Origin: Streptomyces alanosinicus
Lineage (GTDB): Bacteria; Actinomycetota; Actinomycetes; Streptomycetales; Streptomycetaceae
DNA: 64,000 nucleotides
Reading direction: 5' to 3'
Assembly (NCBI RefSeq): GCF_014650595.1
Contig: NZ_BMVG01000007.1
Span: 62,001-126,000 of the forward strand
Positions 7,733-26,349 of this stretch are shown here, in pieces. Under the pieces are notes generated by a model. That model saw only the letters and a program-made list of their open reading frames with translations. It searched no databases and was not told where the DNA came from. The number at the start of each line of letters is the position of its first letter. The stretch's first letter is position 1. A program made the translations under genes and the position numbers.

Positions 7733-7914
7733 ACAAGGGGGGTGAGCGCGGCGGGAGCAAGGGCGGGTCATCCGGCCCGGGGCGTACAGGGAAACCCCTA
7801 TGGCCTGAGCCGGCTTCTTGTTCACACCCCTTATATGCGTCGACAATGCGCATGACAAAACGAACGGGCGGCCGGAAGACTCCGGTCGCCCAAGTCGTCA
7901 GAGGGGACCCCCAC

Positions 7915-20509: not shown

Positions 20510-21847
20510 ATGAGCCTGCGGGCACGCATCAGCACTCCGGAGGAGCACGGCAGCCGGGGCGAGGACGGCCATCTCGTCGCCTCCTACCGGGCCAAGCTCC
20601 TGGAGGAGATCGACCTCGCGGAGATGAGCGCGCTCGCCGCCGCCGAACGCCGGGCGCGTCTGGAGCGGGTGCTCGGGCACATCATCAGCCGCGAGGGACC
20701 GGTCCTGTCGACGGTCGAACGCTCGCAGCTGATCCGCCGGGTGGTGGACGAGGCGCTCGGCCTCGGCATCCTGGAACCGCTGCTGGAGGACGCCTCCATC
20801 ACCGAGATCATGGTCAACGGCGCCGACGCGATCTTCGTGGAACGCGGCGGCCGCGTCGAGCAGCTGCCGATCCGGTTCGCCTCCGCCGACCAGCTGATGC
20901 AGACCATCGAGCGCATCGTGTCGACGGTGAACCGGAGGGTCGACGAGTCGAACCCGATGGTGGACGCCCGGCTGCCCTCCGGCGAGCGCGTCAACGTCAT
21001 CATCCCGCCGCTGTCGCTGACCGGCCCGATCCTCACCATCCGCCGCTTCCCGCGCTCCTTCACCCTGCAGGAGCTGATCTCCTTCGGCTCGCTGGCCGAG
21101 CCCATGGTGTATCTGCTGGCAGGCCTGGTGCAGGCGAAGCTCAACATCATCGTCTCCGGGGCCACGGGCACCGGGAAGACCACCCTGCTGAACGCCCTCT
21201 CGGGGCTCATCCCGCCGCACGAACGCATCATCACCATCGAGGACTCCGCCGAACTCCAGCTCCAGCAGACCCATGTGGTCCGCCTGGAGGCACGGCCGCC
21301 GAACGTCGAGGGCAAGGGCCAGGTCACCATCCGCGACCTGGTCCGCAACTCGCTGCGGATGCGGCCCGACCGGATCGTGGTCGGTGAGGTCCGCGGCGGT
21401 GAGTCCCTGGACATGCTCCAGGCGATGTCCACCGGCCATGACGGCTCCCTCGCCACCGTGCACGCCAACAGCGCCGAGGACGCGCTGACCCGGCTGCAGA
21501 CCCTCGCCTCCATGTCCGACGTCGAGGTGCCCTTCGTGGCGCTGCACGACCAGATCAACAGCGCGGTCGACGTCATCGTCCAGCTCACCCGGTTCGCCGA
21601 CGGCGCCCGCCGGATCACCGAGATCGCGCTCCTCGACAGCCACGGCGGGGAGCCGTACCGGCTCGCGACCGTGGCCCGGTTCGACGCCCAGCCGATGACC
21701 GCCGAGGGCCGGGTGTACGGCACCTTCCAGTACTTCCCGCTGCCCCGCCGGACCGCCGACCGCCTCTACATGGCGAGTCAGCCGGTCCCGCAGGCCTTCG
21801 GCATCGCCCACACGGCGGCCCAACTCACCACCCGAGAAGCCAGGTAG
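20510..21847 (+). CDS. tadA: TadA/CpaF secretion ATPase (type II/IV family)
   Basis: 445 aa. The N-terminal CpaF domain (SREGPVLSTVERSQLIRRVVDEALGLGILEPLL) is followed by the GspE-type ATPase: Walker A GATGTGKTTLLN near residue 220, the Asp box (ITIEDSAELQL) and Walker B VVGEVRGGES, then the His box (HDGSLATVHANS). It powers assembly of the Flp pilus from the cytoplasm. Length is typical. Confidence 0.95.
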   Translation: MSLRARISTPEEHGSRGEDGHLVASYRAKLLEEIDLAEMSALAAAERRARLERVLGHIISREGPVLSTVERSQLIRRVVDEALGLGILEPLLEDASITEIMVNGADAIFVERGGRVEQLPIRFASADQLMQTIERIVSTVNRRVDESNPMVDARLPSGERVNVIIPPLSLTGPILTIRRFPRSFTLQELISFGSLAEPMVYLLAGLVQAKLNIIVSGATGTGKTTLLNALSGLIPPHERIITIEDSAELQLQQTHVVRLEARPPNVEGKGQVTIRDLVRNSLRMRPDRIVVGEVRGGESLDMLQAMSTGHDGSLATVHANSAEDALTRLQTLASMSDVEVPFVALHDQINSAVDVIVQLTRFADGARRITEIALLDSHGGEPYRLATVARFDAQPMTAEGRVYGTFQYFPLPRRTADRLYMASQPVPQAFGIAHTAAQLTTREAR

Positions 21848-22819: not shown

Positions 22820-23707
22820 ATGGCATTCCTGCTCGCGCTGCTGATGGGCCTCGGTGTCTGGGGCGCCTTCACCGGCATCCGCATGTACCGCGCGGACGCC
22901 AAGCTCCCCGGCGACCTCGCCGTCGCCCTGGAGATCGGCGCCACCCGCACCGGCGCCGTCGGCTCCGTCATCGACCGCATGGGCATGCGCTACGCCCCCG
23001 CCGTGCTGCGCCTGATGGGCCCGCGCCTGGTCGCCACGTACCGTCGCAAGATCGACCTCGCCGGCAACCCCGGCGGCCTGACCATCGACCGCTACGCGGC
23101 CCGCCGGGCGGTCTACGGCGCACTGGGCGCCGTCGGCTTCCTGGTCTTCCTGCTGCGCGGCCAGTGGTTCGTGGCCGTACTCCTGCTGCTGTTCGGCGCG
23201 TTCTGGACGGAGGTCGGCATCTGGTCGGCGATCCGGGTCCGCAAGGACGTCATCGAGCGCACCCTGCCCGACTTCCTGGACGTACTGGCCGTGGTGGTCA
23301 GCGCGGGCCTCGGCTTCCGCCAGGCCCTGGACCGGGTGGCCTCCCGCTACGAGGGCCCCTGGGCCGACGAACTGCGCATCACCCTGCGCCAGATGGACCT
23401 CGGCATGAGCCGCCGCCAGGCCTTCGCGGAACTGCGCCGCAGGAACGACTCCGAACAGGTCGCCATGTTCGTGACGGCGCTGCAGCAGGGCGAGGAACTG
23501 GGCGCGCCGATCGTCGACACGCTCGTCTCCCTGGCCAAGGACATGCGCCGCACCGACGCCCAGAACGCCCGCCGCAAGGCCGCCCGCGCGGTGCCCAAGG
23601 CCACGCTGATGATCACCACGTTCATGGTCCCGGCGACGATGCTGCTGCTCGGCGCGGGCCTGATCCTGGGCTCCGGGGTGGACTTCGGCTCACTCACGGG
23701 GAAGTGA
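22820..23707 (+). CDS. tadC: TadC inner-membrane platform protein
   Basis: 295 aa with the second T2SSF domain of the locus (TLPDFLDVLAVVVSAGLGFRQALDRVA, about residues 150-175; RRTDAQNARRKAARAVPKATLMIT). There are hydrophobic segments at the N-terminus, around 95-120 and at the C-terminus (MLLLGAGLILGSG). It pairs with TadB, and the spacing of 14 nt fits one operon. Confidence 0.93.
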   Translation: MAFLLALLMGLGVWGAFTGIRMYRADAKLPGDLAVALEIGATRTGAVGSVIDRMGMRYAPAVLRLMGPRLVATYRRKIDLAGNPGGLTIDRYAARRAVYGALGAVGFLVFLLRGQWFVAVLLLLFGAFWTEVGIWSAIRVRKDVIERTLPDFLDVLAVVVSAGLGFRQALDRVASRYEGPWADELRITLRQMDLGMSRRQAFAELRRRNDSEQVAMFVTALQQGEELGAPIVDTLVSLAKDMRRTDAQNARRKAARAVPKATLMITTFMVPATMLLLGAGLILGSGVDFGSLTGK

Positions 23708-23714
23708 GGCGGGG

Positions 23715-25262
23715 ATGGCGGTGGCCGGGGTGCCGGGGCGCGGCGGCAGGCGTGGGCAGGGGCTCGGGCCGGGGCTCGGGCGGGACCTCGGGCGCAAGCG
23801 GGACCTCGGGCGTGGGCTCGGGCACGGGCACGGGCATGGCCTCGCGGCCTTCGGCGGATGGCTGAGGGGGATCCCGGCCCGGTTCCGCGACCGGTTCCCC
23901 GACTGTTTCCGCGACGGGTTCCCCGACCGATTCCGTGACAGGTTCCCCGGCCGGTTCGCACGGCGTACGAAAGCGGCGCCGGGCGCGGCGGCCACCACGA
24001 CCGAACCGTCCATGAAGATCCAGGTCAGCGCACTGCAGGCGATGTGCCGGCAGGTGTTCGGCTTCCGTCTGGCCATGATCGCCATCGCCGCTCCCGCCGC
24101 CCTGCTCCACGCGGCCCCCGGCGTGGGCGTCCGCCTGGTCGGCGCGGCCGTGGTCGTCACCTTCATGGTGTCCTACGTCCTCTTCCGCGACTGGGAGCGC
24201 TTCGGCCCCCTCCTGCTGCGCCACCCGTCCCTCCTCGCGGCGGACACCCTCTTCGGCTCCCTCCTGCTGATCTCGGCCGGCCCGGACACCACCCTCGCCT
24301 ACGTCAGCGTGTGCACCCCGCTGCTCGCGGGCCTGGCCTACAGCTGGCGGGGCGCCGCGTTCTTCGCCTCGCTCCAGTCGCTGATCCTGCTCCTGGTCCA
24401 CGCCACGCTGAAGGCCGACCGGCACGCCCCCGTCGCCGAGGCCCTTCTGCTGCCCGGCCTGTGCGTCATCTCCGGCGCCATGGGCTCGACCCTGCGCAAC
24501 CTGATGCTTCGCTTCGGCGCGGCCACCCAGGCCCTGACGGCGGTCCAGGCCCGCCTCGCGGCGGCGGAGGCGGTGAGCGCGGAACGCGCCCGGCTGGCCC
24601 GTGAGATGCACGACTCGGTGGCCAAGACCCTGTACGGCGTGGCGCTGGCGGCGGACGGCCTGGCGGCGACGGCTTCGGCACAGGCCCCCGATCCGGCCCG
24701 GATAAGGGCCCAGGCGGACCTGGTGTCGCGCTCGGCGCGCAGGGCGGCGGCGGAGTCCCGGGAGCTGCTGAGGGATCTGCGCAGGGAGCCGGCGCCGGAC
24801 GGGGCACAGGCCCCCCTGTGGCCCGAACTGCATGCATGCATCCGGGACTTCACGACCCGTACCGCGATGAAGGTCACGTACGCCGCCCCGCCGCCCCCCG
24901 GTGTCCCCGCCCTGCCGGCCCCGCTGGCCCGCCATCTGCTCTCCATCACGGCGGAGGCGCTGGAGAACGCCCACCGTCACGCGTCCGCGACCCACGTCGA
25001 CGTCCGCGCGGCGGTCCACGGCGAACTGCTGCGCCTGTCGGTCCACGACGACGGCCGGGGCCTGCCTCCCGGCACCACCCTCGAACAGCTCCGCGAGTCC
25101 GGCCACTTCGGCCTGCTCGGCATGGTGGAGCGGGCCGCGCAGATGGGCGCCCGGATCCGTATCGGCCGGGGCGGGCACGAACGGGGCACGGAGGTACGCG
25201 TGGAAATACCCCTGCGGTCCCTGACCCACCCAGACCCCGACCCCGCACCCCCGCGATCCTGA
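23715..25262 (+). CDS. Sensor histidine kinase of the Tad locus (NarL/DesK type) with repetitive N-terminus
   Basis: 515 aa. The start ATG at 23715 has GAGG upstream and lies 7 nt after tadC. Residues 1-55 are Gly-rich (GLG/GHG), and residues 56-83 are tetrapeptide repeats of the RFRD/RFPD type encoded by a 12-bp minisatellite. The ATG at 24012 (MKIQVSAL) would give a conventional start but has no ribosome binding site. Several membrane helices follow (about residues 115-265). Then comes a HisKA_3 dimerisation box (ARLAREMHDSVAKTLYG, phospho-His) and a HATPase domain (ITAEALENAHRHA, DDGRGLPPG, GHFGLLGMVERA). Its partner is encoded next. The signal is unknown. Confidence 0.88.
   Translation: MAVAGVPGRGGRRGQGLGPGLGRDLGRKRDLGRGLGHGHGHGLAAFGGWLRGIPARFRDRFPDCFRDGFPDRFRDRFPGRFARRTKAAPGAAATTTEPSMKIQVSALQAMCRQVFGFRLAMIAIAAPAALLHAAPGVGVRLVGAAVVVTFMVSYVLFRDWERFGPLLLRHPSLLAADTLFGSLLLISAGPDTTLAYVSVCTPLLAGLAYSWRGAAFFASLQSLILLLVHATLKADRHAPVAEALLLPGLCVISGAMGSTLRNLMLRFGAATQALTAVQARLAAAEAVSAERARLAREMHDSVAKTLYGVALAADGLAATASAQAPDPARIRAQADLVSRSARRAAAESRELLRDLRREPAPDGAQAPLWPELHACIRDFTTRTAMKVTYAAPPPPGVPALPAPLARHLLSITAEALENAHRHASATHVDVRAAVHGELLRLSVHDDGRGLPPGTTLEQLRESGHFGLLGMVERAAQMGARIRIGRGGHERGTEVRVEIPLRSLTHPDPDPAPPRS
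23880..23963 (+). repeat. 12-bp tandem repeat, seven units, inside the kinase gene
   Basis: Units such as CGGTTCCGCGAC and CGGTTCCCCGAC alternate in frame, giving a 24-bp higher-order period and the peptide repeat [R/C/G]-F-[R/P]-[D/G]. Point differences between units show that the array is not brand new. A Gly-rich repeat (GGCTCGGGC-like) lies just upstream (23761-23836). Confidence 0.85.
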
Positions 25263-25273
25263 GAGGAGGCACC

Positions 25274-26026
25274 ATGCAGCACGCTCACCCCTGGCCGGCG
25301 GCCCCCGCGCCGGCCCCGCCCCCGCTGCGGCTGTTGGTGGCCGACGACAACCTGGTGGTCAGGGCGGGCCTGACGGCCCTGCTCTCCGGCCGCGCGGACA
25401 CGACGGTGGTGGCGGAGGCGACGGACGGCCGCGAGGCGTACGAGGCGGCGCTACGGCACCGTCCGGACGTCATCCTCCTCGACGTCCGTATGCCCGGAGT
25501 CGACGGAATCTCGGCATTGCCGCACCTGGTGCGGCTGGCGCCGGTCATGATGCTCACCTACAGCCATGAGACGGCGACCGTGCGGGAGGCGTTGCGACTG
25601 GGGGCCGGGGGATACCTGGTGCACGGCGAGTTCACGACGGAGCAGTTGGTGCGTGCGGTGCGGGATGTCCGGGAGGGCCGGCCGCATGTGACCCCGGGGG
25701 CCGCGAAGGCATTGCTCATGGAACTGCGAGCCAATGCATCTGCACACGCGGAATCTCAAGTCCCGTATTTTTTAGGCGAAAACTCACCTCAAGTGCTTTC
25801 GCAACTGCAATCCCCTATGGGACAGTCGATCCGTTCGCGATTCCGGCTGAGTACGAGGGAGGCGGAGATCATGGACCTCATCGCGTCCGGCATGACCAAC
25901 CAGCAGATCGCCGCCGCCTGCTTCATCTCCGAGAAGACGGTCAAGAACCACATCAACCGCATCTTCGCCAAACTCCAGACCACCACCAGGTCCCAGGCGG
26001 CCGCGAAGTGGCTGGGGGTGGCGTGA
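25274..26026 (+). CDS. Response regulator, NarL/LuxR class, with TTA codon
   Basis: 250 aa, GGAGG before the ATG. The receiver (about residues 18-135) has the acidic pair in VADDN and the phospho-acceptor Asp in ILLDVRMPG, but the usual Lys of GYLxK is His (GYLVHGE). A long linker (about 148-190) is markedly AT-rich and contains a TTA leucine codon (25772-25774), the hallmark of bldA-dependent translation. The C-terminal LuxR HTH (LSTREAEIMDLIASGMTNQQIAAACFISEKTVKNHINRIFAKL) binds DNA. It probably controls the downstream flp promoter (inference). Confidence 0.92.
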   Translation: MQHAHPWPAAPAPAPPPLRLLVADDNLVVRAGLTALLSGRADTTVVAEATDGREAYEAALRHRPDVILLDVRMPGVDGISALPHLVRLAPVMMLTYSHETATVREALRLGAGGYLVHGEFTTEQLVRAVRDVREGRPHVTPGAAKALLMELRANASAHAESQVPYFLGENSPQVLSQLQSPMGQSIRSRFRLSTREAEIMDLIASGMTNQQIAAACFISEKTVKNHINRIFAKLQTTTRSQAAAKWLGVA

Positions 26027-26151
26027 GATGAGGGCGCGGGACGACGCCAAGGGCGGTGAGTGGGCCCGGTCTTGGGCCCTGGGGCCCTCTGGCGGGCGGG
26101 GCGCCCCGGCTTACGTTGTCCGGATCGGAGGCGAACCCGGAGGGGACCACC

Positions 26152-26349
26152 ATGAGCAACTGGTTCAACACCACCGTCGCGTATCTGCGGGCCCGCGCGG
26201 CTCGCGGCGACCGGGGCCAGACCGCGGTGGAGTACCTCGGCATCATCGCGGTGGTCGTGGCGATCGTGCTGGCGATCACGGGTACGAGCATCGGGCAGAC
26301 GATCTTCGATGCGATCAGGAACAAGATCACCGAGGTGACCGGCGGCTGA
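26152..26349 (+). CDS. flp: Flp-family pilin (major pilin candidate)
   Basis: 65 aa. A leader of about 21 residues ends in DRG, then QTAVEYLGIIAVVVAIVLAIT with Glu at +5 and the Flp-type TAVEYLG motif. A short hydrophilic tail follows (FDAIRNKITEVTGG). The ribosome binding site GGAGGGG is the strongest in the locus, as expected for an abundant subunit. The 125-nt gap before it may hold its own promoter. The gene ends inside the start of the next one. Confidence 0.9.
   Translation: MSNWFNTTVAYLRARAARGDRGQTAVEYLGIIAVVVAIVLAITGTSIGQTIFDAIRNKITEVTGG

Follow-up and report, generated by a model that had tools for sequence, protein, structure and literature searches.

The AT-rich linker between the receiver and DNA-binding domains of a response regulator (RR) in the Tad pilus locus of Streptomyces alanosinicus is, with moderate confidence, dual-use DNA, which encodes the RR linker and at the same time would hold a cis-element of the Tad locus that is read by another regulator. 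Support for this reading comes from sequence comparisons, which show that conservation in the linker acts at the nucleotide level, that the element occurs in a single copy per genome, that it is present without the RR gene and that a palindrome presumed to be the operator of the RR is absent from loci that lack the RR. Binding of a protein to the element, the promoter that is targeted and the direction of control are what we infer.

Results and Discussion

The Tad Locus and Its Response Regulator

The window, by which we mean the complete stretch of 64,000 nucleotides that was analysed, includes a Tad/Flp pilus locus with T2SSE, two T2SSF, TadE and Flp pilin genes together (Pfam; the TadE score of 23.2 is barely above the cut-off of 22.9). 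The genes discussed below are:

20510-21847, + strand: tadA/cpaF-type ATPase gene, T2SSE (Pfam)
22820-23707, + strand: tadC-like gene, DUF5936 and T2SSF (Pfam)
23715-25262, + strand: sensor histidine kinase gene, HisKA_3 and HATPase_c, presumed partner of the RR (Pfam)
25274-26026, + strand: RR gene of the Tad locus, receiver and LuxR/GerE helix-turn-helix (HTH) domains, 250 amino acids (ORF and Pfam)
26152-26349, + strand: flp, Flp/Fap-type pilin gene (Pfam score of 25.4 bits against a curated cut-off of 32.2, hence under it; start codon picked by eye)

On the 5' side of the RR gene are genes for a CpaF/TadA ATPase, two T2SSF proteins and a HisKA_3 kinase, while flp starts 125 bp past the RR stop codon. 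The Pfam matches bear out an earlier note on this DNA, which had placed the RR in a Tad locus, and the two-component pair immediately precedes flp. The RR matches Response_reg over residues 21-129 (E 8.7e-21) and GerE over residues 192-243 (E 8.5e-20) and, with a HisKA_3 kinase gene adjoining it, falls into the NarL/LuxR-type class. The best 80 RR matches among named genomes are all Streptomyces records. Because tadC was matched in 288 of 291 Streptomyces genomes the Tad/Flp locus seems to be nearly universal in the genus. TadE-type genes are also found on contigs C32, C54 and C13 of the genome from which the window derives (G000; 10.2 Mb, 177 contigs), and on this basis more than one Tad-like locus may be present there.

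The TTA Codon: Position, Frequency and Conservation

25772-25774, + strand: TTA codon (RR codon 167), 26 nt before the core (sequence, ORF frame)

The TTA triplet that the earlier note had reported in the RR gene is indeed in frame, being codon 167 in the ORF at 25274-26026, and since the Pfam domains comprise residues 21-129 and 192-243 it sits in the inter-domain linker, as had also been stated. The description of that linker as AT-rich holds as well, with a mean GC3 (79 genes) of 0.58, as against 0.93 in both the receiver part and the HTH part on either side. A tRNA-Leu with anticodon TAA, which can read TTA, is encoded in the genome, and the RR gene thus combines an in-frame TTA with a tRNA-Leu(UAA), as a bldA-type gene does. 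A rough scan of the window, from which the RR itself was excluded as it lies below the GC3 limit of the scan, gave 3 TTA among 16,121 codons of 46 coding-like ORFs (positions 7831, 38141 and 48756).

A comparative set was assembled from 160 loci plus the window, yielding 151 distinct RR genes, of which 149 could be anchored on the linker motif; L120 and L164 were dropped as unanchored, and one anchored row, L145, is misplaced, with a copy found elsewhere in that locus. TTA is present in 48 of the 149 orthologues, including 37/50 of those with at least 75% identity, 9/76 at 60-75% and 2/23 below. Counted by codon, this amounts to 54 TTA in 39,569, compared with 6 in 144,952 for the pooled tadA, tadB, tadC and kinase genes at these loci (the kinase counted from residue 131). 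The genes with a TTA number 0/136 for tadC, 0/115 for tadB, 1/64 for tadA, 5/138 for the kinase (from residue 131) and 2/143 for flp, the two flp genes being those of L015 and L136. As TTA is this rare in the neighboring genes, it is the RR that stands out as the TTA-bearing gene here, and its TTA frequency relative to those genes is beyond chance. Inside the linker the situation is different: outside the core element TTA and TTG occur in a ratio of 40:72 (0.36), within the range of 0.11-0.55 spanned by other NNA:NNG pairs, so that in this AT-rich segment TTA is not beyond chance.

These numbers bear on the reading of the earlier note, a bldA switch, in which TTA would have been selected so that production of the RR, and hence of flp, is limited to times at which mature tRNA-Leu(UAA) is present. 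The tRNA-Leu(UAA) gene is present, adpA and amfR serve as precedents in the main text of PMC4255298, and the 37/50 close orthologues with TTA stand against 0/43 tadC and 0/49 kinase genes of the same clade. Further, none of 30 genes with a linker TTA has a second one elsewhere, as opposed to 7 of 20 genes without a linker TTA (Fisher p 0.0008, with kinship ignored), a pattern that speaks for selection, although the independent pairs are too few to back compensation. When the codon is followed among relatives, a check proposed in the earlier note, it proves not to be kept. The closest relative found, L009 (RR 95% identical), has CTA at the position of the window's TTA; L008 and L054, next closest at 91%, have TTA there, and the L088 RR is also without TTA. 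Only 11 of 50 close orthologues have TTA at the position of the window's codon, and its location in the gene shifts to -29, -9, -6 and others relative to the motif. On a tree of the 50 close RR genes, made without the linker, the presence of TTA anywhere in the gene requires 12 changes, compared to 11.7 with shuffled labels, and among the orthologues below 75% identity only 11 of 99 contain TTA. A conserved TTA, kept in orthologues as it is in adpA, was therefore rejected on the basis of 48/149 orthologues, the CTA in L009 and a random-like scatter on the tree. Together with a linker TTA:TTG ratio that matches local base usage, these results make a bldA switch unlikely. An embedded DNA element, which is found also without the gene, accounts better for the AT-rich linker, so that the TTA is likely incidental and, so far as the sequences tell, probably a by-product of that linker. 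In TTA-bearing species, the window strain included, the RR may nonetheless be bldA-dependent.

A Conserved Element in the Linker

25720-25845, + strand: linker of low GC3, whose coding sequence overlaps the DNA element; approximate limits (GC3 and codon tallies)
25735-25746, no strand assigned: Box A, TGCNNNTGCA[CA]A (found in 83/149 orthologues; window position read from the sequence)
25798-25827, no strand assigned: core element, TTCGCNNNTGCAANNNNNT[AG]TGGNACANTC, one copy in its own genome (nucleotide-level conservation)

The core element can be written as TTCGC-N3-TGCAA-N5-T[AG]TGG-N-ACA-N-TC, and codon tallies over the 149 orthologues establish conservation beyond the protein code, as expected of an intragenic cis-element. 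One core codon is CAA in 148/149 genes and another ends in A in all 149 (GGA 97, GCA 39, AGA 8, others). Among 229 well-filled columns of the alignment those with A or T as third base at a level of at least 85% are only 175, 179, 181 and 183, all inside the core; at column 181 the third base is T in 95% of cases and the commonest residue accounts for only 34%, with S, D, P, V, T, N or G being used. Measured against the 30-mer, 101 embedded copies are exact, 35 have one mismatch and 9 have two (145/149 with two or fewer), while the remaining four have 3, 4, 4 and 13, the last of these being probably the misplaced L145 row, which the lowest profile score fits as well. With regard to the two unanchored genes, a profile found the element in the L164 RR and did not find it in that of L120. 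In the 10.2 Mb of its own genome the core has a single match at up to 3 mismatches.

The core occurs in nearly all of the RR family and Box A in part of it only, in 54/60 genes with at least 72% identity, 28/66 at 60-72% and 1/23 below; in a control segment of the receiver Box A was found in 0/149. Where present, Box A is located upstream of the core, at a distance of exactly 63 nt in 82 of 83 orthologues.

Two overlapping reading frames were considered and dropped by eye, one shifted, for which there is no start codon in the window, and one on the opposite strand, where the TCA that replaces TCG in 5/149 genes would be a stop. The spacing of ECF-type promoters presumably does not fit the element, and a consensus scan gave no sigma70-type promoter between 25600 and 26360, linker included.

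The Element in Genomes with and without the RR

In a survey of 291 Streptomyces genomes the core was found in 205 at up to 1 mismatch (0 for a reversed-pattern control), and none is listed with more than one copy. Of the genomes that gave no RR match at E 1e-40, twenty were selected for holding the element, for which reason 20/20 is no retention rate; in these loci the element is present without the host reading frame. In 19 of the 20, L227 being the exception, tadC lies in the same stretch as the element. Searches with tblastn at 1e-6 gave a kinase match in 0/20 of these stretches and an RR match in 1/20, a 43%-identical remnant in L224. Translation shows decayed RR pieces next to the element in L224 and L228, and by eye such pieces are seen there in L226, L232 and L216 too. 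A flp-type motif follows the element in 18 of the 20 loci, at a distance that varies, and was not found in L216 and L221 (the L221 contig ends early). Box A is kept in three (L224, L226 and L232), there 75 nt upstream. On a TadC tree of 60 rows, comprising 41 RR-bearing (one in three of those with tadC) and 19 RR-less genomes, at least 4 changes of RR state are needed, 3 or more of them forced by starred branches.

The survey leaves 86 of 291 genomes with no core copy at up to 1 mismatch, most of which still have the locus, given that tadC was matched in 288/291. A profile built from the embedded copies was applied to 18 of these 86 genomes and found diverged copies (score above zero) in 15; no score above zero was obtained for L234, at a contig end, L235, where a copy with a one-base deletion can be seen by eye, and L239. 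The 18 genomes are not all RR-less, since L236 has an RR and a kinase, L234 a kinase, and L235 and L245 keep RR pieces, the match in L235 covering only HTH residues 193-250. It is possible that L235, L236 and L245 represent stages in the decay of the two-component pair.

Of 8 genomes from other genera of the family, 7 gave a diverged copy with the profile, the exception being L202 (genus g6). Two tandem boxes, TTTGCANNYGCAA, 21 bp apart by eye, are seen in L191, L193, L194, L197, L200 and L201. Boxes of other genera, TTTGCAATCGCAAC and TTTGCAACTGCAAT, read similarly to what we take to be RamB/PrpR-type sites with TTTGC and GCAAA cores, which is a resemblance only. The 63-nt and 21-nt spacings are both multiples of three, as coding DNA requires of the 63 nt, and would correspond to about six and two helical turns, respectively.

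A Presumed Operator of the RR before flp

26061-26087, no strand assigned: presumed RR operator, TGGGCCC and palindrome GGGCCC-TG-GGGCCC, the palindrome at 26074-26087 (comparison)
26112-26117, + strand: TACGTT, taken by eye as the probable -10 of the flp promoter (no promoter here in the sigma70 scan)

The interval between RR and flp contains TGGGNCC repeats, a palindrome of the form GGGNCC-N2-GGNCC and then TACGTT (26061-26117 in the window). The palindrome is found in 142 of 149 RR loci (260 nt after the RR stop searched) and in 1 of the 20 RR-less loci (470 nt after the element searched), the sole case being L228, which keeps an RR remnant; for the looser TGGGNCC pair the corresponding numbers are 125/149 and 0/20. 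This distribution suggests the palindrome as the site of RR action, and also that the linker element is something other than the RR operator. With the element kept in loci without the RR and the palindrome nearly absent there, the linker is best read as code lying over an RR-independent cis-element.

Other Readings of the Element

Since the element precedes flp in the sense orientation whether or not a locus has the RR, it might act as RNA in a tad-flp transcript, as a processing site or the target of a small RNA. We consider this improbable: there is no conserved fold in 14 sequences, with 2 invariant pairs only, no Rfam match was obtained, and the fixed box spacings of 63 nt and, by eye, 21 nt suit DNA better.

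Initiation inside the gene is a second possibility, with the GTG or ATG of the core starting a short, HTH-only RR that is transcribed from a promoter within the gene. The codon in question is GTG in 116/149 and ATG in 32/149 orthologues and is in frame with the HTH, and L235, which is without a kinase or receiver match, retains a degenerate element with an open HTH-like frame behind it. Yet RTG is also found in copies with no RR frame behind them, though the search pattern favored RTG, no Shine-Dalgarno sequence was seen in front by eye and the consensus scan did not find a sigma70-type promoter, so that an internal start is improbable. Finally, a reading of the linker peptide SxLQxxVxQS as a protein motif with merely biased codons is hardly credible, in spite of the SxxQxx[VM] peptide that anchors 149 of 151 distinct orthologues (the L145 anchor being misplaced), as third bases are fixed where residues vary and the DNA occurs also in loci without an RR gene, which disfavor this reading strongly.

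Proposed Explanation

The dual-use reading, which we prefer, can be phrased as follows. The AT-rich linker would encode a flexible connection between receiver and HTH and simultaneously hold a cis-regulatory element of the Tad locus, consisting of the 30-bp core and, in close relatives, also of Box A, 63 bp before it. Probably it is not the RR but another regulator that binds the core, plus Box A where it is present, and the element is most likely an operator for transcription toward flp, perhaps of the RR as well; as the element-flp distance varies, we infer control of flp from position alone. In the tadC-flp region, a control element at the DNA level would have become, or have long been, readable as an RR linker, and since flexible linkers tolerate almost any residue the RR protein can live with codons dictated by the DNA. 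For the RR itself the site of action would be a different one, the GGGNCC-N2-GGNCC palindrome at the flp promoter. The TTA would have arisen in, and be tolerated by, the AT-rich segment, with any bldA dependence of the RR a strain-by-strain side effect. More tentatively, and with less than even confidence, we suggest a genus-wide switch, in which a second regulator binds a single site inside the RR gene, the switch outlives the gene, and the AT-rich codons, TTA among them, open the RR to bldA control in some species.

Relation to Known Systems

We take amfR to encode a regulator of the RR type. According to the main text of PMC4255298, amfR bears TTA in 7 of 12 genomes, and in adpA a TTA lies between the two domain-coding segments in all streptomycetes analysed. 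The Tad RR resembles adpA and amfR/ramR in having a UUA codon in a regulator gene, that of adpA being likewise between domain-coding segments, but differs from adpA, as described there, in that its TTA comes and goes among close relatives. Table 2 of PMC4255298 contains no Tad regulator and the words Tad, Flp, pilus and pili are absent from its main text; similarly, the main text of PMC2000904 contains none of the terms SCO452x, SCO453x and pilus. With NarL/FixJ regulators, those with a LuxR-type HTH, the Tad RR shares the receiver and GerE HTH, an adjoining HisKA_3 kinase and a presumed palindromic operator near the flp promoter; the difference is an independent conserved element in the DNA that encodes its linker. 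Intragenic transcription-factor or sigma-factor sites of bacteria, such as those bound by E. coli sigma54 (PMC4591121), are alike in that a regulatory site lies inside coding sequence, whereas the Tad element stays in the same place throughout the gene family, shapes linker codons and is found without its host gene. Among the literature matches listed, subscription papers being mostly outside them, there is no paper on the control of Tad pili in Streptomyces and nothing on the linker element or a matching intragenic site.

Implications

Overlapping DNA constraint can produce AT-rich codons, including TTA, with no selection on translational control being needed, which calls for caution in inferring bldA control from a lone TTA. 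For studies of Tad control in Streptomyces two handles are now at hand, the presumed RR operator at flp and the single-copy element that persists without the RR. Should the genus-wide switch suggested above be real, a pilus locus would be controlled from within the coding sequence of its own regulator.
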